A stretch of DNA of 64,000 bases from Komagataeibacter nataicola. GTDB lineage: Bacteria; Pseudomonadota; Alphaproteobacteria; Acetobacterales; Acetobacteraceae. The stretch is from contig NZ_NIRT01000014.1 of assembly GCF_003207795.1 (NCBI RefSeq), positions 1 through 64,000 on the forward strand. Direction: 5' to 3'. Below the pieces are notes generated by a model. That model was not told the DNA's origin, searched no databases, and worked only from the letters and a program-made list of their open reading frames with translations. Within the stretch, counting starts at the first letter, position 1. Each line of letters begins with the position of its first letter. This document shows positions 24,794 to 40,242 of this stretch, one piece after another. A program made the position numbers and the translations under genes.

Positions 24794-24809
24794 AATGGCG
24801 GACTCGAAA
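24794..24809. other. Left attachment site core
   Basis: AATGGCGGACTCGAAA, identical to 40227-40242. The match stops at the next base on the right (T here, G there). Confidence 0.85.
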
Positions 24810-24927
24810 TCCGCCTAACCCACGTCCCGGAGTGTTTCAGGGCGTACCAAAAACATAAGGTTTCCTAGGTATTTGCTGGCGTGAGTGTCCCAGAGCGTCC
24901 CAGAATGACCCACACAATCCCCGATTC

Positions 24928-24951
24928 TAAGGGGGGTAATAAGAGGGGTAA
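24928..24951. other. Left tandem arm-type sites of the integrase
   Basis: Two abutting 12-mers, TAAGGGGGGTAA (24928-24939) and TAAGAGGGGTAA (24940-24951). A related pair lies at 40151-40174. They end seven bases before the integrase start, so integrase binding here could also repress its own gene. Confidence 0.6.
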
Positions 24952-24957
24952 ACTGGA

Positions 24958-26169
24958 TTGAGCAGACTCGGACCCAATCAACTGACGGCCCTACAGGTGT
25001 CACGTCACAGGGATGGCAGCATATGCGACGGTGGTGGTCTGTGGCTGGTGGCCTCTGGGGGATCGCGCCTGTGGGAGATGCGCTATACGTCGCCAGCAAC
25101 CGGCAAGCGCAGGCAGATGAGCCTTGGCAGCTATCCCGGTCTTTCGTTGGCCGGTGCGCGTGACAGGGCTGTGGACCTCCGTCGCATGATTAAGGAGGGC
25201 ACTGACCCCTTGGTGGAGCGGAACAAGGAAAAAGCCGCCCGGAAGATGGAACAGGGCGGCACCTTTGCGGGGGTGGCGCAGAGATACATCACGGAGCAGG
25301 CACCGGCATGGAAGGATCGCAAGGCCGCCGCCACATGGGCCGGATCGCTTGCTAACCATGTTTTCCCTGTCTTTGGGGACAAGCCTATCAAAGACGTTGA
25401 TACCGATGATGTGTTGTCTGCCCTCCGCCCTATCTGGAAAGACAGGACAGAGACAGCCGGACGGCTGAGAGGGCGCATGGAGCGCATACTTGATTATGCG
25501 CGTGTCATGGGCTGGCGAGAGGGTGAGAATCCGGCCCGATGGCGTGGGCACCTGTCTGCATTGCTTCCTGCCCCATCCAAGGTGGCGAAGGTCCAGCATC
25601 ACAAGGCTATCCCGTGGGCGGACATTGCATCGGTCATGGCGGCTCTGAGCATGTCCGGCGGGCTGGCGGCCAAGGCTGTTCGCTTTGCCTGCCTGACAGC
25701 GGCGCGGTCTGGTGAGGTCCGGTCCTGCCTGTGGTCTGAAATTGATATGACCACCCGTGTGTGGACGATACCGGCGGAGAAGATGAAGGCAGGGCGGTTG
25801 CACCGTGTCCCTCTGTCCATGCCTGCCACGGATATTCTGGACGGCCTGTGCCAGCCGACAAATGGAACCGGCTTTGTCTTTCCCGGATACAGGCCATCAC
25901 GTCCCCTGACTGACGTGGCGCTGTCCAAGGCTTTGCATCTTGCAGCCGGGACCAAGGATGTGACCGTGCATGGCCTGCGGTCCACGTTCCGGGACTGGGC
26001 TGCGGAAGCAACCGATTATCCGAATGAGGTTGTGGAGATGGCGCTTGCCCATGCAGTCGGCAACAAGGTGGAGGCTGCTTACCGGCGGGGAGACCTGTTT
26101 GAAAAGCGTCGTGCCCTGATGGATGAATGGGCTGCTTATTGCTGCGGGTTACACAGGAACCGGCCATGA
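24958..26169 (+). CDS. P4-type tyrosine recombinase (integrase)
   Basis: 403 residues. The N-terminal DUF4102-like arm-binding domain (about 1-90; RYTSPATGKRRQMSLGSYPG) is followed by a core-binding domain (about 100-195) and the catalytic domain (about 205-390). Catalytic residues are visible: R in TAARSGEVRS, H-x-x-R in VHGLRSTFRDW, H in LAHAVGNK and Y in VEAAYRRGD. TTG 24958 has GAGGGG about 7-10 bases upstream and is preferred; no closer ATG exists. It is placed next to the left attachment site and should integrate and excise the element at tRNA-Arg. Confidence 0.93.
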   Translation: MSRLGPNQLTALQVSRHRDGSICDGGGLWLVASGGSRLWEMRYTSPATGKRRQMSLGSYPGLSLAGARDRAVDLRRMIKEGTDPLVERNKEKAARKMEQGGTFAGVAQRYITEQAPAWKDRKAAATWAGSLANHVFPVFGDKPIKDVDTDDVLSALRPIWKDRTETAGRLRGRMERILDYARVMGWREGENPARWRGHLSALLPAPSKVAKVQHHKAIPWADIASVMAALSMSGGLAAKAVRFACLTAARSGEVRSCLWSEIDMTTRVWTIPAEKMKAGRLHRVPLSMPATDILDGLCQPTNGTGFVFPGYRPSRPLTDVALSKALHLAAGTKDVTVHGLRSTFRDWAAEATDYPNEVVEMALAHAVGNKVEAAYRRGDLFEKRRALMDEWAAYCCGLHRNRP

Positions 26170-26175
26170 CGTAGC

Positions 26176-26326
26176 GGGTCACACCCTCAATTTCCATTCA
26201 GGGTCTGTGTTTTTTGGTGTGACTGGTGTGACTGGTGTGACCAAGCAAAAGAGTGGCGGAATACGGCCATTTTTATGTGGTAGGTTTCGTCACACCTGCC
26301 TGTAATGGGTGTGTGACCGGTGTGAC
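26176..26326. repeat. GGTGTGAC iteron-like array, left locus
   Basis: Three head-to-tail 9-mers GGTGTGACY at 26216-26242, inverted copies at 26176-26185 and 26288-26297, and a further pair at about 26309-26326. The same 9-mer with the same layout occurs, mirrored, at 38376-38487. Confidence 0.65.
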
Positions 26327-26441
26327 TGACAGCGGATCGGGATGCTGATAACAGCGTGTCTGAGCGGTGGCCTCGGGAAATTTCCTCGACTGCTGTAACG
26401 TCATGCTTGACAGACCGCATGTAACGTCACACTTTACACCC

Positions 26442-26732
26442 ATGCAGATCGAGAGCATTTCCCACAAGGGTCTGAGGCGTTTCTTTGAAACTGGGAACCC
26501 GAAAGGCCTGCTGGGGGATGTATCCCGCCTGCGCCGGATGTTGGCCTTCATTGATGCGGCGGCGTCACTTGATGAGCTGTCGGTGCCCCCTAACTACGGC
26601 CTGCATCCTCTTTCCGGGGATCGGGTGGGAACATGGGCAATGACTGTCACACGTAACTGGCGGCTGACATTCCGGCTGAATGACCTTGGCGCAATCGAAG
26701 ATATGGATCTGGAGGACTACCATGGCAATTAA
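26442..26732 (+). CDS. higB: HigB/RelE-family toxin
   Basis: 96-residue toxin of the HigB 'killer' branch of the RelE superfamily, a ribosome-dependent mRNA endonuclease. Key sequence: HKGLRRFFETGNPKGL at the N-terminus, LRRMLAFIDAAASLDEL in the helix, GLHPLSGDRVGTWAMTV and the final NWRLTFRL...DLEDYHG strand. The start is ATG 26442; the frame is open farther upstream but the family begins here. Its last 11 bases overlap the antitoxin gene, giving the toxin-first order usual for higBA. It probably stabilises the integrated element. Confidence 0.9.
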   Translation: MQIESISHKGLRRFFETGNPKGLLGDVSRLRRMLAFIDAAASLDELSVPPNYGLHPLSGDRVGTWAMTVTRNWRLTFRLNDLGAIEDMDLEDYHGN

Positions 26733-27054
26733 GATGCACCCCTCCTTGGCTGTCCATGCCGGGGAATGGCTCAGGACGGAAATCGTGGAGCCTGCCGGTA
26801 TTACGGTGTCTGGCCTGGCATCACACTTCGGCGTTTCCAGACAGGCCCTGAGCGCCCTGCTTAATGGTCGCGCCAGCCTGTCCGCCGATATGGCGATCCG
26901 GTTTGAAAAGGCGTTCGGCGTGAAGGCTGATACCCTCATGCGGATGCAGTCTGCCTTCGATATGGCACAGGCTCGTGCCCATGAAGGTGAGATACACGTC
27001 GGGCCACTGGCAGCCGCCATGCCGCATTCTGTCAGTGTGATGGAAGGGGCCTAA
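26722..27054 (+). CDS. higA: HigA-family antitoxin
   Basis: 110-residue XRE-type DNA-binding antitoxin that neutralises HigB and represses the operon. It begins MAIKMHPSLAVHAGEWL, then the helix-turn-helix GLASHFGVSRQALSALLNGR at about 34-53 and FEKAFGVKADTLMRMQ. The start overlaps the end of higB, so the two are translationally coupled. The C-terminal 25 residues are variable. Operator sites probably lie upstream of higB; no palindrome there is conclusive. Confidence 0.9.
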   Translation: MAIKMHPSLAVHAGEWLRTEIVEPAGITVSGLASHFGVSRQALSALLNGRASLSADMAIRFEKAFGVKADTLMRMQSAFDMAQARAHEGEIHVGPLAAAMPHSVSVMEGA

Positions 27055-27102
27055 GCGCCGTTCCCCCTGTTTTGCGGGTAAAGGGTAAACCCCCCACACT
27101 CC

Positions 27103-27212
27103 TTAACATGTCCGGTCGATGTGTTATCAAAACCCAACGTCTTTAACATGTCCCCTGACGGCATGTTCAACTTGTACACCCTCCGTCCATCCTGTAATGT
27201 TCAATTTGAACA
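27103..27212. promoter_or_regulatory. Repeat-rich upstream region with two motif families
   Basis: Two direct copies of TTAACATGTCC (27103-27113 and 27143-27153) are followed by TGTTCAACTTGTACA (27164-27178) and the near-perfect palindrome TGTTCAATTTGAACA (27198-27212), 15 bases before the next start. A matching palindrome is found after that gene. Probable operators for an element-encoded regulator. Confidence 0.6.
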
Positions 27213-27227
27213 GGGCGGGGGCGGATA

Positions 27228-28271
27228 GTGGCGCAATCCGGTATCAATCTTGAACGTCTGGCGAAGGTCTGGGCACTAGCGGAAGGCGGGAAGCAGGGCG
27301 AGGCAGATGCCGCCCGGCAACGCGCCGCTGCTATGGTTGAGCCATATGGATACGTGCTGGATGACATTCCGGGCCTGCTGGCGGATGCCGGGTTCGGTGA
27401 TGACCTGCCCCAGCCGGGACCGGGGGGTCTCAGGTTCTATAACATGGGCAACCCGGCTCATATGCGGGCTTACCAGCGGGAGCATGATGCCAGGCGGCGG
27501 CGCTGGATGCGCGACAACGCGGACCGGATTGCGGAGGTGATCGCCCGCTATGGATCAAAGGAAGCCGTGTTCGCACCCACGGCGGAAGAAAAGGCGTTGG
27601 ATGCGGCTATTGAGCCATTCCGCGAGGTCCACCCCGATAATCAGGCGGATACGTTTGACGGCGAGAACTTCAGCCCTTCCCCCCGCGTGGTAGAGGCGAT
27701 GGGTCAGGCGATCCCATGGCCCGACACCATCCCGGCGGCTCTGGCTGAATATGAGGCGTGGGACAGGCTATGTGATGACCGCAACGTGGCGGACGGGAAC
27801 AACCAATATGATTACCTGAGCAACGGCGCTGACAAACGGCGGTGGCACTTGTGCGACATGGTGGAGAAGCTCATCCCGGCCCGTGACCTGTCCGACGTGA
27901 TTGTGCGCCTGCGCTTCCAGTTGGACGGACAGGGAAGCCGCGATAACCCCCAGGCTGTTCTTGATGACCTTGAGCAGTTACAGGCAGCAGGCTTCGGGGC
28001 ATCGGAAACACGGGAATCTGCCGGTTTATCACTCGATGTCGATATTCCCGGTAATGAGGGGGATAAGGTGGGAAATCCCCATGTTTGTGCCGGTCCAAAT
28101 CTGGACGCACCTCCTCCGTCCAGATTGAACACGGCAGGGAAGCGGCGGGCGGAGGTAGAGCGGATACTTGCCACCCCGGAAGGCAGGCATATGCCGTTAC
28201 GTGAGATTGCCGCCATCGTTGGGGTATCGCCTTCAACCGTGCTGAACATCAGGCGGCGCATGGCAACATGA
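27228..28271 (+). CDS. Putative regulator with DUF2786-like N-terminus and C-terminal helix-turn-helix
   Basis: 347 residues. The N-terminus INLERLAKVWALAEGGKQGE plus the following ADAARQRAAAMVEPYGY resembles the DUF2786 helical repeat (LLaLAxs...EAxxAxxxAxxLm). The middle is acidic and unrecognised. The C-terminal 45 residues, RHMPLREIAAIVGVSPSTVL then NIRRRM, are a clear helix-turn-helix. GTG 27228 follows a purine-rich GGGGGCGG stretch. TGTTCA-type palindromes lie just upstream and just downstream, so autoregulation is plausible. It could alternatively be a replication-initiator-type protein, but no replicase motif was seen. Confidence 0.6.
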   Translation: MAQSGINLERLAKVWALAEGGKQGEADAARQRAAAMVEPYGYVLDDIPGLLADAGFGDDLPQPGPGGLRFYNMGNPAHMRAYQREHDARRRRWMRDNADRIAEVIARYGSKEAVFAPTAEEKALDAAIEPFREVHPDNQADTFDGENFSPSPRVVEAMGQAIPWPDTIPAALAEYEAWDRLCDDRNVADGNNQYDYLSNGADKRRWHLCDMVEKLIPARDLSDVIVRLRFQLDGQGSRDNPQAVLDDLEQLQAAGFGASETRESAGLSLDVDIPGNEGDKVGNPHVCAGPNLDAPPPSRLNTAGKRRAEVERILATPEGRHMPLREIAAIVGVSPSTVLNIRRRMAT

Positions 28272-28279
28272 CGGAGGTA

Positions 28280-28294
28280 TGTTCAGATTGAACA
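28280..28294. promoter_or_regulatory. Palindromic operator-like site downstream of the regulator
   Basis: TGTTCAGATTGAACA: six-base arms TGTTCA/TGAACA with a 3-base centre, nine bases after the regulator stop. Nearly the same site lies at 27198-27212. Confidence 0.55.
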
Positions 28295-28687
28295 GGGGTA
28301 GGGGCCGCTTACTGTGCGGACCCTTTGGTTTATCTCTGCGGCCCAAACCGTACGCGAGTTACACAGGTCAGGTCATGCGTCAGGGTTATTATCGGCACGA
28401 CAGAAAAGACACATCCAACGCGCATTGCGCGAGATGAGGCTGACGCGGGAGACTGGTCTACTTTCGTCTACTTTAGACGCGCATTCGCGCGAGGCCGTAG
28501 CGACGAATTTCGTCGGCACAAACCGAACGAGCCGAACACGTCCTACGCGCAATGCGCGCGAACGGGAATTAGCTGGATGGTCGGAGGTTTCCGCACCAAG
28601 TGCGCGCGCGAGGCCTGAATATCTGGTTTTGTCAGGTTTTCATGACTTAATATTATCCGTGCGCGCGCGTGCGCGAGGCTGCCCCAC

Positions 28688-28966
28688 CTACTTAGGGGGT
28701 GCAGCGTCCTTGTGGCCCAATAGCCGGTCCACGGCCTGCTGGTCCTTCTGGATCATTGACAGCAAGGTGCGGGCTGCTGGATCAGGCTTCCGGCGTCCCT
28801 GCTCCCAGTCGGCCATGGCAGAAGCGGTAAAGCCATACCGCCTGGCAAATGCGGCCTGTGACATTGGGCAGTAGCGGCTTTGTGGATTTCGTGCGCCTCG
28901 CCTGATGCTGAATACGTCCACCACCTCCGGCGGCGTCCATTCGGATATGGGTTTGATACCTGTCAT
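28688..28966 (-). CDS. XRE-family helix-turn-helix regulator (antitoxin-like)
   Basis: 92 residues. A Cro/C1-type helix-turn-helix spans about 34-75: MSQAAFARRYGFTASAMADW, EQGRRKPDPAARTLLSMIQ. The pattern matches HigA/NadS-type antitoxins and small phage repressors. No toxin-like gene lies beside it, so it is either a solitary repressor or an orphaned antitoxin. ATG 28966 is the start; a 38-bp hairpin (28982-29019) lies just upstream and could be its operator. The Shine-Dalgarno is weak. Confidence 0.75.
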   Translation of the reverse strand: MTGIKPISEWTPPEVVDVFSIRRGARNPQSRYCPMSQAAFARRYGFTASAMADWEQGRRKPDPAARTLLSMIQKDQQAVDRLLGHKDAAPPK

Positions 28967-28981
28967 GCCGCATCATATTGC

Positions 28982-29237: not shown

Positions 29238-29423
29238 GCGCAATAGTGCAGCAGGGCCATGACCCGCTTCGCTACGAGATACGCGCGCGCATGCGCGAGA
29301 GAATGCGGCAGGCTGCGTTTGATTTTTTTTCAAACGGAAATCAAAGCAGTTCCCATCAACCTGCTCCAATGCGTCTCAACACCTGAAGCCATTGAGTGCG
29401 AAGCGCGAGTAAAGCCGTGACCA

Positions 29424-29583
29424 TAGGTAGGGTCACACATCTTGCCGATCCATTTTCTGTCTTGTTCGGCCTCAAATGGCCCGACTTGGCCCTAAGCCAA
29501 GAAACAGCTTGTCCGGGCCGTTTAGGGCCAGCTCGGGCCGAGTTGGAACAAATCTGGGCTGGCAAGATGTGTGTGCCTACGTA
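29424..29583. repeat. 160-bp imperfect inverted repeat, MITE-like
   Basis: The 23-base ends (29424-29446 and 29561-29583) match in inverted orientation at 20 of 23 positions, including a perfect 13-mer CACACATCTTGCC/GGCAAGATGTGTG. Interior CGGCC and TGGCCC blocks also pair in register. No coding capacity. Confidence 0.55.
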
Positions 29584-29768
29584 GGCACCGGCCTGACTTG
29601 CATTGCATGCTCGACGTTGACGCGGGTGATCTGCTGGTGTGCCGCAATGCTCCAAAGACCCCTGGAAGGGGATGGTGCCGACACAGATGGCCGCCACAGC
29701 CTGTCAGGGACGTGCTCAGGCGTGTGTAACGGAATAATCGTCTCCTGGTGACCGCATTGAGCGTTTGA

Positions 29769-29921
29769 GGCTTTCTGCGTACCTTTGTGGACGGCAGAGA
29801 AAACGACTATCCCCGAGAGATGGCTCTGGAGCACGCTATCGGGGATAAGGTTGAGGCCGCGTATCGGAGGGGTGATCTATTCGATAAGCGGCGAGAAATG
29901 ATGAGAGACTGGGGACGTTAG
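29769..29921 (+). pseudogene. C-terminal remnant of a second tyrosine integrase
   Basis: The open stretch ends with NDYPREMALEHAIG, DKVEAAYRRGDLFDKRREM and a stop, closely matching the last residues of the integrase at 24958 (MALAHAVGNKVEAAYRRGDL). It retains the final His and the catalytic Tyr but nothing upstream of the stop at 29766. A separate, decayed integrase, so an earlier element probably occupied this place. Confidence 0.8.
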
Positions 29922-30809: not shown

Positions 30810-31952
30810 CTACGCATCAACCTTGGATCGCTTTCCTTTTGCACCCATGGCTTCAACGCGGGCTTTAAACACACTGAGAAGCTGATCGTCTATGCCGCCC
30901 AGTTCATCTGATTCAAACTCACCCCCAAATTCTTCACCGAAGTCGAACGTATATTTGATACCCTTATCCTCATAAAAATCGAACAGACGTCCAGCCCGCT
31001 CCTTTCGGTAGAATACTACAAATTTTCCTTTGTAATCTTTATATTCAATACTGGTTATAGCATCGAATAATTCGTCACTATCCGCCAAGAACGCGAGCCG
31101 CCGTTTGGCATACTCATAAACTTCCAACTCGGTTTCTGTCGTGATGATACCATCTGCGGGTTTTGCATCGGGATCTACCTTCGGGACATCGGCAACCAGA
31201 ACCGGCTTGTCAGCTTCCTTGTCCTTTACCGGGAGGTCTAGTCTCTGGAGAATGCGAAGGTTCACGAACTCAGCGAAGGCGCTTTTTGTCAGGTCCATAT
31301 ACTCGGCGACTGCCTTGGCGCGAATATGCTTGAGGCCAATATTTTGCAGCAAAAGGCGCACAAACGCCTCACTGGGTGATGCTGCAAGATCCTCGATCTG
31401 CTGAACGAGATTTTGGAAAACCAGCTTGCGTTTGGCTTCTGCCCCAATATTTTCAGGGTCGAAGTTGGACTTTTGAAGACTTTTCAACCCGTCGACAACG
31501 GAGTCCTCAATCTTCCCTTTTGCAATCTCCCGAAGGTCAAATGATAGAAAGGCGGTCGGGTCCATCATATTTGGCTCATCTGAGTCTGCATAGAACTCAT
31601 AAACTAGGCCATCAGTGATAACGCCCATTTTTACTGTGTGGGCTGCATTAAAATATGACTTTAACTGTCCTCGGTCATCTTTCAATGGCGCACCTAGTGC
31701 CTTACACTCGATTGCAATTACCGGCTGTCCTTCACGAAGGACAGCATAGTCCACTCTATTTTTGTATTTTTCTGAAAAATCTGCGTGATGTTCCGGGCAC
31801 ACTTCGTCCGGATTCATGATGTCATATCCCAAGAACTGCAAAAATGGCAGAACAAGGAACATTTTTGTGGCTTCTTCATTGCTGCAACGCGGAGCAAGGC
31901 CAACCATGCGTTCTGAAAATGCTTTAAACTTTTGTCGAAAATCGTCTGACAT
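30810..31952 (-). CDS. Solitary HsdR N-terminal-type (PD-(D/E)xK) nuclease, candidate defence gene
   Basis: 380 residues. The N-terminal 140 residues match the type I restriction R-subunit nuclease domain as found in stand-alone proteins: NRVDYAVLREGQPVIAIECK gives the D and E-x-K of the PD-(D/E)xK site (about residues 68-85), then QLKSYFNAAHTVKMGVITDG. The SF2 helicase domains of true HsdR are absent. The middle is helical and the C-terminus (about 290-350) is a separate alpha/beta part. No methylase or specificity gene is adjacent. It is AT-richer than the surrounding element. Probable role: anti-phage or anti-plasmid nuclease cargo; alternatively DNA processing for the element. Confidence 0.7.
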   Translation of the reverse strand: MSDDFRQKFKAFSERMVGLAPRCSNEEATKMFLVLPFLQFLGYDIMNPDEVCPEHHADFSEKYKNRVDYAVLREGQPVIAIECKALGAPLKDDRGQLKSYFNAAHTVKMGVITDGLVYEFYADSDEPNMMDPTAFLSFDLREIAKGKIEDSVVDGLKSLQKSNFDPENIGAEAKRKLVFQNLVQQIEDLAASPSEAFVRLLLQNIGLKHIRAKAVAEYMDLTKSAFAEFVNLRILQRLDLPVKDKEADKPVLVADVPKVDPDAKPADGIITTETELEVYEYAKRRLAFLADSDELFDAITSIEYKDYKGKFVVFYRKERAGRLFDFYEDKGIKYTFDFGEEFGGEFESDELGGIDDQLLSVFKARVEAMGAKGKRSKVDA

Positions 31953-32088: not shown

Positions 32089-32280
32089 TTACTCTTTATC
32101 TGCCTCAAGTCCCTTCGCAATTAGGCGGCGGATGGCTTCTGCACGGGTGATGCCGTGACTGGCTGCCCATGCATCAATCAACCTCATTTCTTCATCGGTG
32201 ACGCGAGCAGCTACATGAGATCGTTCGCCTGTTTTAGGCCGACCTCTGTTTTTTTGGTTACCAGTTATTGACGCTATCAT
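32089..32280 (-). CDS. Ribbon-helix-helix (CopG-like) regulator
   Basis: 63 residues. HVAARVTDEEMRLIDAWAAS gives the strand and first helix, and HGITRAEAIRRLIAKGL the second helix of a ribbon-helix-helix fold. A basic N-terminus (NQKNRGRPKTGER) could reach the DNA minor groove. It ends 137 bases before the nuclease start on the same strand. TTGGTTACCA occurs at 32254-32263, inside its first codons, and again at 32286-32296; these may be its operators. Confidence 0.6.
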   Translation of the reverse strand: MIASITGNQKNRGRPKTGERSHVAARVTDEEMRLIDAWAASHGITRAEAIRRLIAKGLEADKE

Positions 32281-32302
32281 TTTTATTGGTTACCAAAAAA
32301 GC

Positions 32303-32364: not shown

Positions 32365-32616
32365 ATGGCTAATCGTGCCTATAGCACGCCCAGACACACA
32401 TGGGCATGCTCCCGGCTGGGTACAAGCGTACTCGGCTCCCTTTTTCCCAAAACCGGGAAAGACCCCTTACTAACATCCGAGCATCTGGCGGCCGGGCTGA
32501 TCTTCCCCGCGCTGCTTCTGCTCGCCCTGGCCGGGTTCGCCCAACCGGAGGTTCTGCGGCACGGTGCCGCGAAACCCCACCCCACAGTGATCGCGCTGGC
32601 GGAGGTGGCCCGATGA
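32365..32616 (+). CDS. Small predicted membrane protein, first gene of the tiny-gene operon
   Basis: 83 residues with one hydrophobic segment (AAGLIFPALLLLALAGFAQ, about 42-60). GGAG lies 8 bases before ATG 32365. Its stop overlaps the next start (ATGA). No family recognised. Confidence 0.45.
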   Translation: MANRAYSTPRHTWACSRLGTSVLGSLFPKTGKDPLLTSEHLAAGLIFPALLLLALAGFAQPEVLRHGAAKPHPTVIALAEVAR

Positions 32617-32810
32617 GCGAGACACCACAGAACCGCGTGCATGCTGTTGTGTGCGATTTGCGCGCTCTGTCCGAGATACTGGACGCCCTTATCACCGCCT
32701 CGGAGCCAGTTCCGTTGGAATGGATGCACAAATGGGTAAAGCGCCTCCACACCGAACTGGATGTGGCATGGCTGGCCCTTCCCGATGAGCGCCGGGAGAG
32801 AGCCAAATGA
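32613..32810 (+). CDS. Small hypothetical protein, operon gene 2
   Basis: 65 residues from ATG 32613, mostly helical and acidic (CDLRALSEILDALITASEPV, then MHKWVKRLHTELDVAWLALP). It overlaps its neighbours by 4 bases on both sides. The longer frame upstream is a shadow of gene 1. Function unknown. Confidence 0.6.
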   Translation: MSETPQNRVHAVVCDLRALSEILDALITASEPVPLEWMHKWVKRLHTELDVAWLALPDERRERAK

Positions 32811-33067
32811 ACAGTCCCATCCGCAAGGCCACCATGGCTGCTCTTGCCGCTGATCGCCGGTGCTGGAAGGAACCCGCCACCATCGACGCGGAAACACAGA
32901 TGCGGCGTTTTGGCGCGGCCTACCGCAAGGTCATCCGCACGCCCGTCCGAACTCTTTCCGATCTACAGGACAAAGCCCGGCTGGTGATGCTGTGTAATCC
33001 GAAGCCCGACACCATAGAGGGCAGCCTTGCCCGTGACATTCTGGCGCTGAAAGGGGGCGCGAAATGA
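32807..33067 (+). CDS. Small hypothetical protein, operon gene 3
   Basis: 86 residues, helical and basic (FGAAYRKVIRTPVRTLSDLQ). ATGA overlaps at both ends show translational coupling. No family recognised. Confidence 0.6.
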   Translation: MNSPIRKATMAALAADRRCWKEPATIDAETQMRRFGAAYRKVIRTPVRTLSDLQDKARLVMLCNPKPDTIEGSLARDILALKGGAK

Positions 33068-33309
33068 GCAAGAACGATTTCAGCACGGCTATCTACGCCC
33101 TCGGCTGGCAGGAGCGATCCCTGAGCAACGTAAGCAATGTGCTGCGTGCGCTTGCGCACGATATGGAGATTACGGAAGTCCCGAACGACAGTAACAGAGA
33201 CCACTGGATGGATGTGGCTCACTGGCTGTCCGACTACACCAAAAAGATGCAGGCGAATGCCAGCGCGGACATTAACGCTGCCAAAAATGGCGGGGTGTAC
33301 CCGAAATGA
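33064..33309 (+). CDS. Small hypothetical protein, operon gene 4
   Basis: 81 residues, soluble and helical (SNVSNVLRALAHDMEITEVP, WMDVAHWLSDYTKKMQ). It starts in the stop of gene 3 and ends in the start of gene 5. Function unknown. Confidence 0.6.
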   Translation: MSKNDFSTAIYALGWQERSLSNVSNVLRALAHDMEITEVPNDSNRDHWMDVAHWLSDYTKKMQANASADINAAKNGGVYPK

Positions 33310-33533
33310 GCGACCTTCTACAAATCGACATCAAGCAGGTCAGGGCAGCCCAGAACGCTAGCCATTATCTCGCACGTCTCGCCATCCTCATGCGCTGGGC
33401 CGGAGAGGGGATGACAGCTACCGCCAGCCGGTCGGGCCTGACCCCGGCACAGGCGCAATCCTTTGGGCTGGCTATCACGTGGGCTGCTGACGAAATCGAG
33501 CGGCAATGCATCACCATTGATGAGGCGATTTGA
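33306..33533 (+). CDS. Small hypothetical protein, operon gene 5
   Basis: 75 residues, helical (ASHYLARLAILMRWAGEGM; LAITWAADEIERQCITIDEA). Composition resembles genes 2 and 4, hinting at a related family within the operon. Function unknown. Confidence 0.6.
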   Translation: MSDLLQIDIKQVRAAQNASHYLARLAILMRWAGEGMTATASRSGLTPAQAQSFGLAITWAADEIERQCITIDEAI

Positions 33534-33534
33534 G

Positions 33535-33657
33535 ATGAAACGCTTCCTCATCAACGCCGCCCTATTCTTCCTTATCCCCCTTACCGGCATCGCCGTCCGT
33601 ATCAGTGGCGCGATGCTTCGGCTGTCAAACCACATGTGGCAGGAGGTGAAGCCATGA
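33535..33657 (+). CDS. 40-residue membrane peptide, operon gene 6
   Basis: MKRFLINAALFFLIPLTGIA is a single hydrophobic span followed by a short tail (VRISGAMLRLSNHMWQEVKP). It starts one base after gene 5 ends and overlaps gene 7. Too short to assign; small holins, inhibitors or signal peptides of larger lost proteins are all possible. Confidence 0.5.
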   Translation: MKRFLINAALFFLIPLTGIAVRISGAMLRLSNHMWQEVKP

Positions 33658-33950
33658 CGTCGGATGAAGCATACGCCACGCTGTTTGGAGAACCTGACCC
33701 GATCCGGCGCGGGAAGCGATGGGCCGAGACCGTGTGGGGCGTGAATGGCCTGCCGTTACGGGAGGCGCAAAGGCTGGTGCAGGCGGAAGCCGAGGCCATG
33801 CGCAACAGGCTGAAAGACGCTCCATGCGCCAGATTTGAGCATGAAGGTATCCCGTTGGTGGATCGGCATGTGGGCTATTTCACCGTGGCGGCCAAAGCGC
33901 GTCTGTATGACCTCTATATGGCTCACCAGCATCACAGGGGGCACGCATGA
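33654..33950 (+). CDS. Small hypothetical protein, operon gene 7
   Basis: 98 residues from ATG 33654, charged and helical, with RLVQAEAEAMRNRLKDAPC and a C-terminal His-rich tail (MAHQHHRGHA). Overlaps genes 6 and 8 by 4 bases. No family recognised. Confidence 0.55.
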   Translation: MTSDEAYATLFGEPDPIRRGKRWAETVWGVNGLPLREAQRLVQAEAEAMRNRLKDAPCARFEHEGIPLVDRHVGYFTVAAKARLYDLYMAHQHHRGHA

Positions 33951-34276
33951 GCCGCCCCGCACGCATCTGGTCTGCCCGCGCCCTCCGCCGGATTGAACAC
34001 CTCCGCAAAGAGGGTCTGTCATGGCGTGAGGTAGGCGAGGCGATGGGCAGCAGTTCCGCGTCCTGCCACCGGGCATGGCGCGCGCATACCGCGCCACCCA
34101 GCCTCGCAACGCCCGATCGGCTGGCAGTCATACAGGCTGCCACTACGGAAATCAGTGTCATGGCCGGGATACTGGCCCGCATGGCGGAGGGGGACAAACA
34201 GACCGGCACTGAGTTGGCATGGCTGGCCGATGGGATCGGTCGGTATGCCCACGCCATTGAGGACTGTATTTCATGA
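33947..34276 (+). CDS. Helix-turn-helix protein, operon gene 8
   Basis: 109 residues. ALRRIEHLRKEGLSWREVGE followed by AMGSSSASCHRAWRAH is a homeodomain-like helix-turn-helix of the kind found in small phage regulators and GcrA-like proteins (about 12-48). The rest is helical. It is the last gene of the overlapping set, so it could regulate the operon. Confidence 0.65.
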   Translation: MSRPARIWSARALRRIEHLRKEGLSWREVGEAMGSSSASCHRAWRAHTAPPSLATPDRLAVIQAATTEISVMAGILARMAEGDKQTGTELAWLADGIGRYAHAIEDCIS

Positions 34277-34866: not shown

Positions 34867-35118
34867 ATGACCGAAGAAAACGACGACCTGATCCCTTTTG
34901 CCGATGCGATTGCGGAACTGAACAGCCAGCGTGCGACTCGGGGCGCTGGCGATAGCTTCCATGCGATGACGACGGCTTACTCCTACGCGGCAAGCGGGAT
35001 GATCCCCACAATCAAGCGGGGCCGCTTCCGCTTCGTGCGCCGGTCTGACCTGCCTGTGATTGCTGCCCGCCTGCCTGTTGGCCGGACTGGCTGCGTGACC
35101 TCCCACGCTATGGCTTGA
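34867..35118 (+). CDS. Xis/AlpA-like small DNA-binding protein
   Basis: 83 residues from ATG 34867. An N-terminal acidic segment, then DSFHAMTTAYSYAASGMIPT and KRGRFRFVRRSDLPVIAARL: helix, basic wing and recognition segment as in excisionase-type winged helices. It directly precedes a second such protein and the primase genes. A likely activator of the replication module or an excision factor; which of the two is not decidable here. Confidence 0.5.
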   Translation: MTEENDDLIPFADAIAELNSQRATRGAGDSFHAMTTAYSYAASGMIPTIKRGRFRFVRRSDLPVIAARLPVGRTGCVTSHAMA

Positions 35119-35128
35119 GGGGGTGCGC

Positions 35129-35359
35129 GTGACTGCTGGCGGCAATGAGAAGGCACCTCCGCATTACGTATCGGTGGTTGAGTGGGTGGCGCGGACGGGC
35201 ATGTCCCGCACGGAAACGTATCGCAAGTTGAATGACGGCAAGCTGATCGCAAAGAAGCTGGGACGCCGGACGGTGATTGATTTCCGGGCGGGACTGGCAT
35301 GGCTTGCGTCCCTTCCCAGCGCAACATTCATCCCAAAAAGCAACGGCCCCCGTCATTAA
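35129..35359 (+). CDS. AlpA/excisionase-like helix-turn-helix protein
   Basis: About 76 residues from GTG 35129, which has AGGGGG 6 bases upstream; an in-frame GTG at 35123 is the alternative. YVSVVEWVARTGMSRTETYR plus KLNDGKLIAKKLGRRTVIDF is a clean MerR/Xis-type winged helix. P4-like satellites encode AlpA-type proteins that control integrase or late genes. Positioned before the primase genes. Confidence 0.65.
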   Translation: MTAGGNEKAPPHYVSVVEWVARTGMSRTETYRKLNDGKLIAKKLGRRTVIDFRAGLAWLASLPSATFIPKSNGPRH

Positions 35360-35474: not shown

Positions 35475-35822
35475 ATGGCAGAAACACATGCACACCCGGA
35501 ATCCGTACGCGCGAATCCGGGGGGTAAAATAGACTTCCAGACAGTCAACCGCGCAGCCCTTGGCGTGCTGACAGCCCTGCTCCTGCGCTGGCTGCCAGAC
35601 GGTAAGCGTGAGGGGCACGAATGGGTGTCGCGGAACCCGCGCCGGGGTGATCGTAATCCGGGTTCGTTCAAAGTGAACATGAACACGGGCCGATGGTCTG
35701 ATTTCGCCACGGGCGACCGGGGCGGTGATCCCGTATCCCTTGCGGCCTATCTGTTTGGACTGTCCCAGCTTGAGGCGGCGCAACAGCTTTCCATTATGCT
35801 TGGCATGGAGGTGCGGCCATGA
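35475..35822 (+). CDS. Primase zinc-ribbon-like accessory protein
   Basis: 115 residues. GHEWVSRNPRRGDRNPGSFK then NMNTGRWSDFATGDRGGDPV and SLAAYLFGLSQLEAAQQLS follow the CHC2/DnaG N-terminal pattern (N-P-x-R-x-D...G-S-F-x-V...W-x-D...G-D-x-x-x) seen in phage primases, although the zinc-binding Cys residues are absent. It overlaps the DUF927 gene by 4 bases. Probably forms a split primase with that protein. Confidence 0.65.
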   Translation: MAETHAHPESVRANPGGKIDFQTVNRAALGVLTALLLRWLPDGKREGHEWVSRNPRRGDRNPGSFKVNMNTGRWSDFATGDRGGDPVSLAAYLFGLSQLEAAQQLSIMLGMEVRP

Positions 35823-38359
35823 CCGGCATTACCTCCGAAGCCAGCGCCCTTCCCGCAATGGCGTGCCTGTCAGGACCGGCACCCCTTGCGCCTTTGAGCG
35901 ATGAGGAAAAGGCCAGGGCAAAAGCCGCTGGTGGTCCTGCCGGTGAAGAATGGGAGCCGGTTACGCCTGCCCCTTGCGATCCTGAAAGACCGCGCGATGC
36001 GGTGGCAATGTGGGTTTACCGCGATGCGGAGGGCCGCCCCCTTTGTGCCCGTTTCCGTTTGGAGCGTGAGAACGGCAGCAAGGATATTCTGCCCCTGTCC
36101 TTTGGTCGTCGTGTGTGGACGGACAGGAAGGGCAAGCGCCACGATGCAACAGGCTGGCACTGGAAGCAGGGGCGCAAGCCGTTGCCGCTTTACGGACTGG
36201 ATCAGTTGGCGGCCTTCCCTGATGTGCCCGTGCTGCTGGTGGAAGGTGAAAAGACGGCGGACGCGGCGGCCCGTCTGTTTCCTGATTATGTGGTCATGAC
36301 CTCCCAGGGTGGCAGCAAGGCGGCGGCCAATAATGACTGGTCGCCCCTGGCGGGACGTAGCGTGACGATCTGGCCGGACAATGATGATGCTGGCAGCGGG
36401 TACGCCGATGCGGTCATTGCCGCTCTTGAGGATGTTGGGGCTGCGGTGGTGCGTAAGGTGGGGGTGCCGGAAAACCTGCCTCCCGGCTGGGATTTGGCTG
36501 ATGACGTGCCGGATGATCTGACGGGCGGAGGGGAAACGTCCGATGTGGATTTCCTGCGTCCATATCTGGATCAGGCCACGCCAGCCGTCGCAAACGTCAA
36601 GATGCCGCATGGTTACAGCATGGAGCGCGGGGGCCTGTATTTCACCCCCGAGCAGGAAGGCGACCTCCCCCCGAAGAAGGTAAAGGTCTGCATCCCCTTC
36701 AACGTGATTGCCGAGACGCGGGACGTGGACAACATGGGGTGGGGTGTCCTGATTAGCTGGCTGGACCCGGACGGAAAGCCCCACCAGTGGGCATTGCCAA
36801 AGCGTATGGTGCATGGGGACGGCAAGGATATTGCCAGTGAACTTGAGGACGCGGGTTTTGGTTGCACCGTCTCTGGCGTGCGGCTGCTGCGCCAGTTCTT
36901 TGCCTCGGTTCATACCGTGCGCCGTCTGCGCTGTGTCGATAAGTCGGGATGGTATCATGACAATGGCAACGCCACCTTTGTCCTGCCCAATGGTGTGACG
37001 GTTGGTGCGGGGCGGCGTGATGTGGTGTTCCAGACGACCCGCATGGCACGGGGCGCGGAATACGGCACAGCCGGGACTCTGGTGGACTGGCAGCATGATA
37101 TTGCCGCATACGCCGTAGGTAACAGCCGCCTTGCGTTTTCCCTGTCTGTTGCCTTTTGCGGCCCCCTGCTGGACCTGATGGGCGAACAGTCGGGTGGGTT
37201 CCACATCGTGGGCAAGAGCCAGTCCGGCAAATCCACATCCCTGTTCGCTGCGGGTTCGGTATGGGGCAAGGGCGACCGTGACGGGCAGGTGCGTTCATGG
37301 CGCGGCACGTCCAACGGGACGGAGGGCATCGCGTCCGAGACCTCCGACACCCTGCTTGTCCTTGATGAGATGGGGCAGGCCAACAGCCGCGAAGTCGGTG
37401 AAATCACCTATATGCTGGCGAACAACAGCGGCAAGCAGCGTGCCGGTCGCAATGGCGAAGCCCGTGCCCGCAAGAGCTGGCGCGTGCTGTTCCTGTCTAC
37501 CGGCGAAATCACGCTGGCAACCAAGATGGGAGAAGCAGGACAGCGCCCGATGGCAGGGCAGGAGGTCCGCCTTGTGAACGTGCAGGCCGATGCCGGGGCC
37601 GGGATGGGCCTGTTTGAAAACCTGCATGACATGGCCTCACCGGGCGACCTTGCCGATCATATCCGCCGTGCGGCCCGGACCAGCTACGGCACCGCAAGCC
37701 GCGCATGGTTGCAGGCCCTTGTGCTGGACCGCAATGAAGATGAGGCCGTCCTTACCGATACCATCAAGCAGATTGTGGCACGGTTTGAAGAACAGGCATT
37801 GCCTGATGCTGGCCCTGTCGATGGGCAGGTGCGCTCCGTAGTACGACGGTTCGGGCTGGTGGCTGCTGCGGGCGAGATGGCAACCGCGTATGGCGTTCTG
37901 CCGTGGCAGCGTGGGGAAGCAACGCGGGCCGTTCTGGTGTGCTTCCGCTCATGGCTTGATGAGCGTGGCGGCACCCAGGCGGCGGAGGACAGGACCGCAA
38001 TCGAACAGGTCCGGCTTTTCATTGAGGAACATGGAGAGAGCCGTTTCACCCCGCTGGGTGGTCCCGATGGCGACGGTGATGACAGCCGCTCCCGCACGAT
38101 CAATCGCGCCGGATACCGCCGTAAGGTGACAACAGAAGGCGGTGCGGAGAAATGGGAATACCTGATTTTCCCTGCTGTATGGCGTGAGGTCGTGTGTAAG
38201 GGGCTGGATGCCAGGCGGGCCGCGCAAAGCCTTATCGCTGCCGGGTATCTCAATTCGGGCAAGGGCGGGAAATCGGCGTCATTCCTCAAAGACCCCGAAC
38301 ACGGCAAGTCCGTGCGCGTCTACGCAATCAGTGATGACATTATGGGTGGGGACAAATGA
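35819..38359 (+). CDS. DUF927/TOPRIM primase-helicase-like replication protein
   Basis: 846 residues. The N-terminal part has TOPRIM-like strands VLLVEGEKTADAAARL (about 138-155) and VTIWPDNDDAGSGYADAVI (about 180-200). The DUF927 ATPase follows from about 300: the P-loop GKSQSGKST lies near residue 465 and the Walker B LLVLDEMGQ near 520. C-terminal helices end with a domain of unknown type. Family members act as replicative helicase-primases of phages and integrative elements. It is coupled to the upstream primase-like gene and is the largest gene of the element. It suggests the element can replicate after excision. Confidence 0.85.
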   Translation: MTGITSEASALPAMACLSGPAPLAPLSDEEKARAKAAGGPAGEEWEPVTPAPCDPERPRDAVAMWVYRDAEGRPLCARFRLERENGSKDILPLSFGRRVWTDRKGKRHDATGWHWKQGRKPLPLYGLDQLAAFPDVPVLLVEGEKTADAAARLFPDYVVMTSQGGSKAAANNDWSPLAGRSVTIWPDNDDAGSGYADAVIAALEDVGAAVVRKVGVPENLPPGWDLADDVPDDLTGGGETSDVDFLRPYLDQATPAVANVKMPHGYSMERGGLYFTPEQEGDLPPKKVKVCIPFNVIAETRDVDNMGWGVLISWLDPDGKPHQWALPKRMVHGDGKDIASELEDAGFGCTVSGVRLLRQFFASVHTVRRLRCVDKSGWYHDNGNATFVLPNGVTVGAGRRDVVFQTTRMARGAEYGTAGTLVDWQHDIAAYAVGNSRLAFSLSVAFCGPLLDLMGEQSGGFHIVGKSQSGKSTSLFAAGSVWGKGDRDGQVRSWRGTSNGTEGIASETSDTLLVLDEMGQANSREVGEITYMLANNSGKQRAGRNGEARARKSWRVLFLSTGEITLATKMGEAGQRPMAGQEVRLVNVQADAGAGMGLFENLHDMASPGDLADHIRRAARTSYGTASRAWLQALVLDRNEDEAVLTDTIKQIVARFEEQALPDAGPVDGQVRSVVRRFGLVAAAGEMATAYGVLPWQRGEATRAVLVCFRSWLDERGGTQAAEDRTAIEQVRLFIEEHGESRFTPLGGPDGDGDDSRSRTINRAGYRRKVTTEGGAEKWEYLIFPAVWREVVCKGLDARRAAQSLIAAGYLNSGKGGKSASFLKDPEHGKSVRVYAISDDIMGGDK

Positions 38360-38375
38360 TGGCCCATCTATTCCC

Positions 38376-38487
38376 GGTCACACCGGTCACACCTCGTATT
38401 TTTGGGTGTGTGACCGGAAGAACCCCAGAAAAACGACAGAAAACAGCCAATCCGAACGCTGGTCACACCGGTCACACCAGTCACACC
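38376..38487. repeat. GGTCACACC iteron-like array, right locus
   Basis: Direct 9-mers at 38376-38384, 38385-38393, 38461-38469, 38470-38478 and (one mismatch) 38479-38487, plus an inverted GGTGTGTGACC at about 38405-38415. Mirrors the array at 26176-26326. It lies just after the DUF927 gene. The overlapping frame it creates encodes PVTPVTP/HTGHTSHT repeats and is not believed to be a gene. Confidence 0.65.
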
Positions 38488-38647
38488 GCATTTTACAGAC
38501 CCCGAAACGGATTGGCTCTGTTTGCACCTGATAGCAGGCGGTCTGAGGGGCTACCCGTCGTTGAGAACAGCGGAGATAACAGTGAAGGGCAGCCGTTGAG
38601 AACAACGGGTCTGAACGGGATGCACATACACATCGGAGGTGGGCATC

Positions 38648-39148
38648 ATGGTTAGTGTCGCCCTTGCCGGACTGATGGAGTGGGCAAAGTCGGATTGCGC
38701 TCCAGAGATCCCGGACCCCTCCGCCCTGCTGGCGCAACTGGATGATCTTGGGTGCCGTGTCGTGCTGGTGGACGGGCAACCGGCCATAAGGGGCAATACC
38801 GCCGCCATCACCCCAGACCTTATCAGGATGATGAAGTACAGCCGGGACGCCATCATTCAGATACTGGAAGCAACAGGACCATCCCCAGCGCAGGCCCCGG
38901 CGCATGAAGATCGTTCGGGCATCCGGCTCGACCCAAAGACCGGCAAGCTGCACCTGTTCGGCTCACCAGACCCGCAATGGCTCAAAGAGCAGGGGTGGGC
39001 ATGGGACCAGAATCGCCACCGCTTCATGGCTCCCTATCCACGCGACCGGGATGACGCCACGCCTGAGCACATGATTGGTGGTGGCCCTCGCCTGCCTGAT
39101 GATTATCCCGAAATTACCTATGCCCCTGACAGCAGCGAGGACGCATGA
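38648..39148 (+). CDS. Hypothetical protein of the replication region
   Basis: 166 residues from ATG 38648, which has GGAGG 9 bases upstream. N-terminal helical part LLAQLDDLGCRVVLVDGQPA; C-terminal part with DPKTGKLHLFGSPDPQWLKE and many acidic residues. The pattern of a TubC-like N-terminal docking segment (VxLxLxxGxLxV type) is only a weak resemblance. Unknown function; likely co-transcribed with the gene that follows. Confidence 0.6.
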   Translation: MVSVALAGLMEWAKSDCAPEIPDPSALLAQLDDLGCRVVLVDGQPAIRGNTAAITPDLIRMMKYSRDAIIQILEATGPSPAQAPAHEDRSGIRLDPKTGKLHLFGSPDPQWLKEQGWAWDQNRHRFMAPYPRDRDDATPEHMIGGGPRLPDDYPEITYAPDSSEDA

Positions 39149-39149
39149 C

Positions 39150-39950
39150 ATGAGCAATCCCAAATATGCCACGGCCCGTGCAGTTCCGACCGTGATGGCT
39201 GATCCTGCTACGCTGGACCCCAAGGCCGTGCGGTGCCTATGGACGCGGCCTGTCCCGGCAGGGATGGGGGATGCGACCTATCTGCCATCTGTGGTGTTCG
39301 TGGACGGCACGGAATGCCCGCTTGCCTGTGCGATGGACGGGCTGGCGGCTCGCCAGTTCTGTCAGAAGATTGCCGCCGTCCATGATTGGCCCGTGAAGGA
39401 TGGGCGCGCGCTGGATGAAAGCCGGGAAGTCGCACAGACCCGTATCATGGCGTCGCTGGATGATAATGACCGCAAGGTCGTTGATGGCGTGGGCATGGTG
39501 AACATGCCTGGCACAGGCAGGATCGCGGCCATGTTCGCGCATGATGCCGGACTGCCCTACGGATTCGCTGTGGAGGCCGTAACGCGACGGCTTACGGCGC
39601 TGTTTCGCCAGATGGTCATACCAGGGCAGGACACGGACGAACACAGGCAGGCGGCAATGGATGCCGCCATGGATAAGATGGCTGAACTCTACCGGGGCGA
39701 AAAGCCTCAACCGAGCCTGTCTGAACTGGGTACGCACGGCGCTGGCGTGGTGATTGCCGATTACTGCCATGACCGGAACCGGACAGACGATGACTACCAG
39801 CGTGCCCTGACAGCAACCCTTGAGGCATTGGGGGATTTGTGGACGGAGCGCAGCATCGGGGAAGTGGAGCGGGACCGCATGACCGATGAGGTAATGGATA
39901 CCAGCCTGCGCCGCTGGTTTGCCCTGACGGGCAGGGAGGTGGCCGGGTGA
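39150..39950 (+). CDS. Hypothetical protein of the replication region
   Basis: 266 residues from ATG 39150, immediately after the previous stop. Mixed alpha/beta N-terminus (SVVFVDGTECPLACAMDGLA) and a helical acidic C-terminus with regularly spaced charges (QRALTATLEALGDLWTERSI). No catalytic motif recognised. Conserved position at the end of the replication module suggests an accessory role in the element's life cycle. Confidence 0.6.
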   Translation: MSNPKYATARAVPTVMADPATLDPKAVRCLWTRPVPAGMGDATYLPSVVFVDGTECPLACAMDGLAARQFCQKIAAVHDWPVKDGRALDESREVAQTRIMASLDDNDRKVVDGVGMVNMPGTGRIAAMFAHDAGLPYGFAVEAVTRRLTALFRQMVIPGQDTDEHRQAAMDAAMDKMAELYRGEKPQPSLSELGTHGAGVVIADYCHDRNRTDDDYQRALTATLEALGDLWTERSIGEVERDRMTDEVMDTSLRRWFALTGREVAG

Positions 39951-40153
39951 TGGCAGGCGGGCGAAAGTCAGGACGGCCCGCAAAGGAAATCAGGACAGGT
40001 AAGGGGCTTCCAGAGATGGAGGCCTTTTTTATGTGTAGGGGTAACACCCTCACACCTACATCCTCATTTTATAGGTCAACCTATTTCATTGCGTTATCAA
40101 AACAAACATGCACCCCATCCTGCCTGCTAAAGCCGTCCAAGCGACAGTTTTAA
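39950..40153 (+). CDS. Possible small protein at the right end
   Basis: 67 residues from ATG 39950, overlapping the previous stop. Only the start, MAGGRKSGRPAKEIRTGKGL, looks coding; the AT-rich tail does not. It may be a truncated gene whose end was altered near the attachment site. Confidence 0.3.
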   Translation: MAGGRKSGRPAKEIRTGKGLPEMEAFFMCRGNTLTPTSSFYRSTYFIALSKQTCTPSCLLKPSKRQF

Positions 40154-40174
40154 GAGGGGCGTTAAGGGGGGTAA
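40151..40174. other. Right tandem arm-type sites
   Basis: TAAGAGGGGCGT (40151-40162) and TAAGGGGGGTAA (40163-40174). The second is identical to 24928-24939; the first differs from 24940-24951 at two positions. 52 bases from the right core. Confidence 0.6.
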
Positions 40175-40226
40175 GCCAAACGGAAACAGCCAAAAAATGG
40201 CTATTTTCTGCTATTTTTTGGAAATT

Positions 40227-40242
40227 AATGGCGGACTCGAAA
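40227..40242. other. Right attachment site core, within the tRNA 3' end
   Basis: AATGGCGGACTCGAAA; bases 40229-40242 are the last 14 bases (including CCA) of tRNA-Arg on the minus strand. Confidence 0.88.

Follow-up and report, generated by a model that had tools for sequence, protein, structure and literature searches.

A probable PICI-like phage satellite of acetic acid bacteria with a terS-like array and matching iterons at two sites

The window analysed here is a whole stretch of 64,000 nt from Komagataeibacter nataicola (contig NZ_NIRT01000014.1), and its subject is an island of approximately 15.4 kb (positions 24794-40242) that ends at a tRNA-Arg(CCG) gene. The island is probably a phage satellite of acetic acid bacteria that resembles the phage-inducible chromosomal islands (PICIs) and carries a pac-like array of segments similar to the terS gene of helper phages. 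This reading is favoured because of unoccupied integration sites in relatives, a probable excised or tandem form, a replication module of PICI type, a sister element that bears TerS, and units that resemble prophage terS. A preliminary description of the DNA had proposed a phage satellite or a minimal integrative element, and the evidence favours the satellite side of that proposal. A more specific idea, offered tentatively as possible rather than probable, is that the array is a library of packaging tickets of about 40 nt from the terS genes of different helpers, combined with an iteron code at two sites that is matched by the wing of the replication protein (Rep). If true, PICI-type satellites extend to the industrial vinegar and cellulose bacteria, and one satellite without a terminase or other packaging gene of its own could be packaged by several types of helper, a possible way for such an element to use more than one phage.

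The Rep protein and its two iteron arrays

Rep (35819-38359, plus strand, 846 aa) joins a Toprim-like part (DUF6371) to a DUF927 MCM-like helicase (Pfam E 7.5e-75) and a predicted C-terminal winged helix, and follows a small primase N-terminal-domain protein (35475-35822, plus strand) with weak matches to PRK07078 and the DnaG N-terminus, both under cut-off; these are the split primase and DUF927 ATPase recognized in the preliminary description. By sequence, Rep matches two Protein Data Bank (PDB) entries, Cch of the staphylococcal cassette chromosome mec (SCCmec; 5dgk) and Rep of the Staphylococcus aureus pathogenicity island (SaPI) SaPIbov1 (8tch), with a helicase core homologous to both, and an NCBIfam Cch1 match is under cut-off. 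The AlphaFold model of full-length Rep was poor (mean predicted local distance difference test score, pLDDT, 50) and went unused; the C-terminal piece of 146 residues was modelled instead, and is predicted to fold as a winged helix (best model mean pLDDT 76) whose nearest folds are residues 401-556 of SaPIbov1 Rep (Z 10.4) and TcpK of pCW3 (10.2), with the next row at 5.3. Foldseek also places 8tch first for this model (E 0.011, probability 1.00). According to the excerpt of PMC7581432, the C-terminal domain of SaPI Rep acts on iterons directly downstream of its own gene. The island has iterons GGTGTGACY with 9-bp spacing directly past the rep stop codon, in two sets (38377-38494, minus strand), and again after the integrase gene int (26178-26326, plus strand, six exact 8-mer copies). 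From the predicted fold and the sequence comparisons we infer that the winged helix may bind these iterons, and the right array is a candidate origin of replication.

The same iteron occupies both arrays in 9 of the 11 elements with both arms readable, a count that leaves aside the left arm of the element in genome G007. The sequence at both sites is GGTGTGACY in the window, in K. diospyri MSKU 9 (G010) and in Novacetimonas maltaceti LMG 1529; GGTGTAACY in G. entanii LTH 4560, in G005 and G006, where the two arms lie on different contigs, and in G285, which belongs to another genus; and TGTTCCAC in G003 and G004. The iteron versions of the window type and the G. entanii type are GGTGTGACC and GGTGTAACC, respectively, and the left and right arrays switch allele together. 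Rep differs between the GGTGTGACY and GGTGTAACY trios by 15 fixed differences, 14 of which fall within residues 818-846, which in the predicted winged helix correspond to the wing and the tail; the nine other three-plus-three splits of the same six proteins give 0-3 fixed differences, none of them in the last 30 residues. In the right arm, 60 of the 62 fixed DNA differences lie within one block of 227 nt (38261-38487, not counting gapped columns); the left arm has 24, of which 22 fall in the iteron stretch (26175-26324). Those genes between the arrays that were compared show no division into the two iteron groups. Covariation of the Rep tail with the right iterons may reflect a single swapped cassette, by linkage, but this explanation fails for the left array because it is 12 kb away and the intervening genes that were compared group otherwise. 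By analogy with ori and crr of phage P4, we read the pattern as one specificity system with two sites in cis. A comparison of G003, G004 and G007 with G008 and G011 says little, since the Rep differences are spread along the whole protein. Between G285 and G314, which have different iterons, Rep is 92-100% identical in residues 401-700, 67-69% in residues 751-846 and 46-52% in residues 201-300.

The repeats were also compared with chance expectation. A test for one 8-mer clustered at two places, against 200 block shuffles per element, was passed by the window, G010, N. maltaceti, G003 and G004 (0 of 200 shuffles of each) and failed by G. entanii, G008, G011 and the one-sided pieces of G005, G006 and G007. 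Of 35 DUF927 loci entered, 33 were distinct and had sequence after the stop codon, duplicates and loci matching the Toprim part only having been omitted; at 23 of these 33, the Pseudomonas satellite phiAH14b included, the top repeated 8-mer in the 350 nt past the rep stop codon outscores all control windows from its own locus (8 to 180 per locus). The ten loci that fail include N. maltaceti and three GGTGTAACY elements of the island family, whose copies vary more; N. maltaceti is beaten solely by a 7-copy window, which is explained by its left array.

Several results weigh against this reading. Of the five C-terminal AlphaFold models (means 76, 53, 53, 51 and 46) a single one is confident, Foldseek found no match to the C-terminal model with E < 0.001, and the spacer between the two sets of the right array, at 51% AT, is not clearly AT-rich. 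The iterons of G008 are mismatched between the two sites and G011 shows the right array only, and the two-cluster test missed its positive control, P4, where the ori array was found but crr was not. A PDB sequence search with the C-terminal piece found nothing. The G008 element (L030, L039) is a mosaic: int is followed by copies of GGTGTGAC and, at a greater distance, by a cluster of GGAACACC, whereas the iterons behind rep are GTCGGGCA.

The terS-like array and a putative life cycle

BLASTN of the island against the two prophage contigs of the host gives a single match of 35 nt (94% identity) on contig C40, at the start of a 153-aa terS gene (approximately codons 12-23), and none on contig C3. 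The island unit concerned (28518-28558) belongs to a non-coding array (28391-28558, plus strand) behind the gene of a 347-aa protein; the units are approximately 40 nt long, and each of six elements has two to six good ones. A pattern search of the genus set (19 genomes, including the window's own, G000) finds 17 matches in five genomes, compared to four for the reversed pattern. Fourteen are in elements (one in G000, five in G010, four each in G005 and G006) and the remaining three are at the same codons of prophage terS in G000, G010 and G001, a distribution that rules out a general genomic repeat. The array is also unlikely to encode a peptide, with at least one stop codon in every frame of the six stretches (330-700 nt) and unit spacings of 42-127 nt that are not all multiples of three.

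The 5' half of the unit is allele-specific: units of the window and G. entanii differ from C40 terS at 1 of 20 positions, and in G005, G006, G010 and N. maltaceti the first unit has 1 difference in 20 from G001 terS. The C40-type TerS is a member of phrog_4044 and is weakly similar to Sf6 TerS, under cut-off. In headful phages the pac site is often inside or near terS, and by analogy the terS-like units may be pac-like packaging sites. Among viral contigs of IMG/VR that contain the 17-nt core, 5 of 11 have it at codon 19 of the same terS and the other six in unrelated open reading frames (ORFs), as expected for a short core in a huge collection. For the terS alleles L205 and L207, even the nearest unit differs at 7 or more of 20 positions; L207 nevertheless has a 23-nt core in common with G. 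entanii, and longer, weaker matches to these two alleles lie upstream of terS in comparisons with G003 and G004. Prophage C3 and phages phiKM1 and phiKX1, of each of which the first 50,000 nt were searched, contain no such TerS (tblastn) and no unit match. Small matches elsewhere link phiKX1 to the window (52 nt, 83%), phiKM1 to G006 (23 nt) and contig C70 to the window (21 nt).

With these components, a life cycle can be proposed. Its first step, insertion by a P4-type integrase at the 3' end of tRNA-Arg(CCG) that leaves the tRNA unbroken, is supported by the sequence; thereafter a ribbon-helix-helix (RHH) repressor would hold the early genes off until derepression by a helper phage; AlpA-like proteins would then switch the integrase to excision; the primase fragment and Rep would begin replication, with the winged helix reading the iterons after rep and after int; and the helper terminase would recognize circular or multimeric DNA through the terS-like array, so that the island copy would need no packaging gene. 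Exchangeable cargo (the HigBA toxin-antitoxin pair, an HSDR_N nuclease, other restriction genes in sister elements) may pay for the island's stay.

Some observations do not favour a packaging role. The core, at two mismatches or fewer, is absent from the element stretches of the more distant sisters G003, G004, G007, G008 and G285, and therefore only part of the family has the array. For most units no terS partner is known. An allele-A prophage resides in G010, whose element carries an allele-B unit only. In the one published particle experiment found that touches this family, DNase-treated phage DNA of K. maltaceti NBRC 14815 gave one phage genome, that of phiKM1 (PMC8566455, in excerpt). This strain is the type strain LMG 1529, and a complete sister element is present in its genome; nothing close to that element was found in the phage collection. 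With an HNH gene next to its terminase and no matching terS, phiKM1 is perhaps not the helper, but the negative result stands. The array could also be a weapon carried by an otherwise ordinary satellite, acting as a decoy to titrate the TerS of the helper or as the source of an RNA directed against terS expression. The several units per element, of two kinds that resemble different terS alleles, would suit such a weapon, and helper interference is among the PICI features listed in the excerpt of PMC6092414; the matching units are in sense with the reading direction of the element, however, and an antisense RNA would have to come from the opposite strand; we regard this alternative as rather unlikely. 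Whichever role the units have, the six close elements amount to a natural experiment, with two iteron alleles and matching Rep tails, and two terS alleles and matching units; thus, both recognition codes are testable with short DNA fragments and purified domains.

Integration site, excised forms and spread

The island is bounded by exact direct repeats of 16 bp, AATGGCGGACTCGAAA, at 24794-24809 (attL core, plus strand) and 40227-40242 (attR core, plus strand), 15,433 bp apart from start to start. The right repeat forms the 3' end of a tRNA-Arg(CCG) gene (40229-40305, minus strand), as the preliminary description had observed; the gene is intact, and the repeat is the specific attachment site expected of a PICI. 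A 14-bp core, TGGCGGACTCGAAA, is present as a single copy, at tRNA-Arg, in 13 of the 19 genus genomes, and in more than one copy in the six with an element there (G000, G005, G006, G007, G008, G010; the count of four in G010 is due to overlapping contig ends). Thus, the empty sites that the preliminary description had suggested looking for exist. Presence of the segment in all relatives would have spoken against the satellite reading, but it is absent at tRNA-Arg in those 13. When G007 is compared with the unoccupied site of G003, and G006 with that of G016, the left flank aligns at approximately 90% identity for approximately 1.5 kb and reaches the core; the window's own left flank aligns with G014 and G003 for only 29 bp (24781-24809), since beyond these it consists of other DNA. 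The stretch left of the island (18000-24790) is AT-richer (38-56% GC) and by eye includes a glycosyltransferase-like ORF and a transposase-like remnant; it is probably another insertion region. Positions 24796-24816 of attL read, by eye, as 6-bp inverted arms, GGCGGA and TCCGCC, on either side of a 7-bp spacer, CTCGAAA, which is likely to be the core site of the integrase. An Rfam scan of 18000-41000 found tRNA as its sole family, and promoter and terminator scans gave results at the level of shuffled sequence.

In the assembly of K. diospyri MSKU 9, the island is a separate contig (C45) of 14,748 nt that extends exactly from core to core; the tRNA-side contig shares exactly 77 nt with C45, the overlap ending at the core, and the other neighbouring contig has the core at its positions 61-77. 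Branching of contigs at the core is unexpected for a purely integrated copy and would be explained by an attP junction, circular or tandem; the contig ends thus suggest a circular or tandem form. In G. entanii LTH 4560, the right end of the element (L120, contig NODE_60) is joined directly to its left end via a variant core, GGCGGATCGAAAGTCCGCC, and the start of int, encoding the integrase N-terminus, is deleted. The same contig also holds, by eye, methylase-like, endonuclease-like and other genes, a set that we read as plasmid-like; a putative mobilization protein on it has no Pfam match. Its coverage label of 712 was dropped as a hint of high copy number, because the other, plasmid-like genes on the contig make it uninformative about replication of the element.

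This end-to-end junction in a plasmid-like contig is one reason to consider an integrative element without phage packaging, which would excise, replicate and spread with plasmids or by conjugative mobilization in trans. The lack of a packaging gene in the island copy fits that alternative, as do two matches under cut-off, one of a DUF5338-like protein in the G007 element (E 2e-4; similar ORFs are seen by eye in G003 and G004) and one of the RHH protein to NikA (E 0.003). However, none of the 18 window proteins scanned belongs to a relaxase or conjugation family over cut-off, the gene plan equals that of PICIs and phiAH14b, and the terS units and the TerS-bearing sister would be left unexplained. 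A non-packaged element is therefore considered improbable, and the satellite reading is retained.

Full-length relatives of the DUF927 protein are present in 9 of the 19 genus genomes, the window's own included, and in 26 of 299 family genomes (E 1e-150). Named strains and species account for 8 of 11 loci, the other three being distant: N. maltaceti LMG 1529, G. entanii LTH 4560, K. diospyri MSKU 9, K. swingsii, K. oboediens, K. xylinus (two strains) and K. europaeus. The G003 and G004 elements are at tRNA-Asn(GTT), with repeats of 14-31 bp; no end repeat was found for the G011 element. The DNA of int is 94-97% identical to that in G005, G006 and G010, and that of the genes o38648 and o39150 is 93-95% identical in G010 and G006, the two of these three genomes that hold both, whereas host DNA beside the tRNA gene is only 78-80% identical between the window and G006, G010 and G005. 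Thus, the island has travelled, and by these identities it appears to move between species. Cargo varies: the HSDR_N nuclease in the window and G006, a C5-methylase with NgoMIV in G003, and a PIN protein in G005. The G007 element carries a terS (Terminase_2, E 8e-42), the sole one over cut-off in the 19 genomes, together with a tape-measure-like gene; the excerpt of PMC10111431 describes late genes captured by PICIs, which is a parallel. The preliminary description had asked whether capsid or terminase genes of the same element exist elsewhere: no capsid or large-terminase family was found in ten scanned proteins of the G007 and G004 elements, but G007 has the small terminase and tape-measure-like genes just named, and some PICIs likewise carry late genes.

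Most core genes are under purifying selection. For the main genes, most comparisons give a ratio of nonsynonymous to synonymous substitution rates (dN/dS) of 0-0.24 (int 0.10-0.15, o39150 0.08-0.09), the exceptions being o32614 (0.54-0.76), an AlpA-like gene versus G006 (0.51) and o38648 versus N. maltaceti (0.31); for higB and higA there was no counterpart to compare. This selection argues against a prophage that has decayed and shed its late genes, as do the recurrence of the gene order in G285 and the related elements at another tRNA gene. The island does have an integrase and regulators as a prophage would, plus the broken tail of a second integrase (by eye), and a relative of Rep (41% identity over 92%) is encoded in the 42.7-kb phage record MT835519; that record is the best of 35, with no closer phage in the collection, and a decayed prophage is hardly credible. 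Relatives of Rep in IMG/VR are distant (nine loci, 21-43% identity). Searches of IMG/VR found no relatives of the 266-aa, 109-aa and 86-aa element proteins, and searches of the phage collection none of the 266-aa and 86-aa proteins.

Comparison with known satellites and the remaining genes

The plan that the island appears, from sequence comparison, to share with Gram-negative PICIs and phiAH14b consists of integrase, swappable cargo, repressor, AlpA-like protein, primase, DUF927 Rep and iterons. Gram-negative PICIs (Fillol-Salom 2018, PMC6092414, in excerpt) resemble the island in their int, AlpA-like and primase/rep genes, iterons directly 3' of rep, mostly one direction of transcription, specific attachment site and accessory cargo, and in the terS of one sister; unlike them, the island fuses its DUF927 Rep to a Toprim-like part, has a second matching iteron array after int, has a terS-like segment array in place of terS, and resides in an alphaproteobacterial host. 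The Pseudomonas satellite phiAH14b (KU708005; PMC4936722, in excerpt) has 16.8 kb, an integrase, AlpA, small genes, a Toprim primase, a DUF927-like helicase (31.5% identity over 66%), iterons right after the helicase gene and no terminase; it differs in its low protein identity, in having the iteron after the helicase gene only, and in having the Toprim part as a separate gene. The excerpt reports phiAH14b as packed in a helper capsid. P4 (NC_001609 annotation) has a P4-type integrase and the same type-1 repeats at two sites, with crr just after the alpha gene and ori elsewhere, but its Rep is of another family, the second array of the island adjoins int, and none of the 18 scanned proteins of the window matches a sid/delta/psu-type family. 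SaPI Rep and SCCmec Cch (8tch, 5dgk; PMC7581432, in excerpt) share the DUF927 helicase core, the predicted C-terminal fold and iterons directly downstream; the fusion of Rep to a Toprim-like domain and the Gram-negative host set the island apart. The matching two-site iterons with the Rep wing and the terS-like array go beyond the preliminary description. Among the matches listed in a search of open-licence literature, no paper on satellites in acetic acid bacteria was found. With its small size and known tRNA site, such an island could also be used as a vector for integration.

As in PICIs, int comes first, followed by the primase and rep genes, and most genes run rightward, with the HSDR_N and RHH genes running leftward. 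The tyrosine integrase (24958-26169, plus strand) is intact, as first described, with Pfam matches to Phage_integrase, Arm-DNA-bind_3 and Phage_int_M and a match to the P4-type PRK09692 (E 6e-49) that is under cut-off. Two small helix-turn-helix proteins (34867-35118 and 35129-35359, plus strand) occupy the PICI alpA slot between int and the primase gene; these are the AlpA/Xis-like excisionase or regulator proteins of the preliminary description, and their matches to HTH_17 (E 0.007-0.008) and Phage_AlpA (E 0.03) are weak and under Pfam cut-off. The second matches the Cox-like phrog_575 (E 4e-4). The pair is 93-100% identical in G010, G006 and G005; in G003, G004, G007, G008 and G011 matches are confined to the second protein (41-44% over 40-53 residues). 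No capsid, terminase, tail or conjugation family is found at cut-off by Pfam and PHROGs among the 18 window proteins, in agreement with the first account. The HigA match to PhageMin_Tail and the RHH match to NikA, both weak and under cut-off, were taken as noise.

Features added to that account are HigB/HigA, the HSDR_N nuclease, the RHH repressor, the two iteron arrays, the terS-like array and the integrase tail. HigB toxin (26439-26732) and HigA antitoxin (26722-27054), both on the plus strand and identified by profile matches, are optional cargo: their location is an alignment gap in the five close elements aligned, and relatives are present in the G008 element. The 347-aa protein (27228-28271, plus strand), which adjoins the left iterons, has a weak C-terminal helix-turn-helix and a 57.5% identical homologue at the same location in G285. 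The HSDR_N endonuclease-like protein (30810-31952, minus strand; Pfam E 1.9e-13; phrog_4225 endonuclease, E 2e-70) has a 98.9% identical copy in the G006 element and is, by family alone, a candidate defence gene; PADLOC gave no match for it. The RHH repressor gene (32089-32280, minus strand; RHH_1 above Pfam cut-off; phrog_4738 repressor) is divergent from the early genes and has palindromes at 32254-32264 and 32286-32296; the three matches to the pattern (at most one mismatch) were equalled in 1 of 100 shuffles. Near this slot, sister elements encode Cro/C1-type helix-turn-helix proteins, mostly under Pfam cut-off. The operon-like run of small early genes (32613-34276, plus strand) includes 32807 (phrog_36656) and 33306 (phrog_31590), neither with an assigned function, and the others match no Pfam family at E 0.01. 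After rep are the genes of two proteins of no family, the 166-aa o38648 (38648-39148, plus strand; 93% identical in the G010 and G006 elements) and the 266-aa o39150 (39150-39950, plus strand), which has a 41% identical homologue after rep in G285.

Positions 29780-29920 contain, by eye, a degenerate C-terminal remnant of a second, different integrase, a sign of older insertion or recombination. A 224-bp segment (29392-29615, plus strand) matches, at 96.9% identity, the DNA immediately beyond the iterons of the plasmid-like contig C66 (L146, 14,004 nt) of the window's own genome and of K. nataicola pKNA06 (L150), which looks like a partial head-to-tail double of C66. C66 has a VapE-type helicase with iterons directly after its gene, and the element type also encodes a large terminase, a head protease and ParA; it shares with the island o33947 (89%), o32807 (73%) and an AlpA-like gene (38% over 50 residues). 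Elements of this type may be a second kind of satellite with some capsid genes, and a terminase 100% identical to the C66 type (G008:C3:1776303-1777739) is approximately 9 kb from an integrase of the island family.

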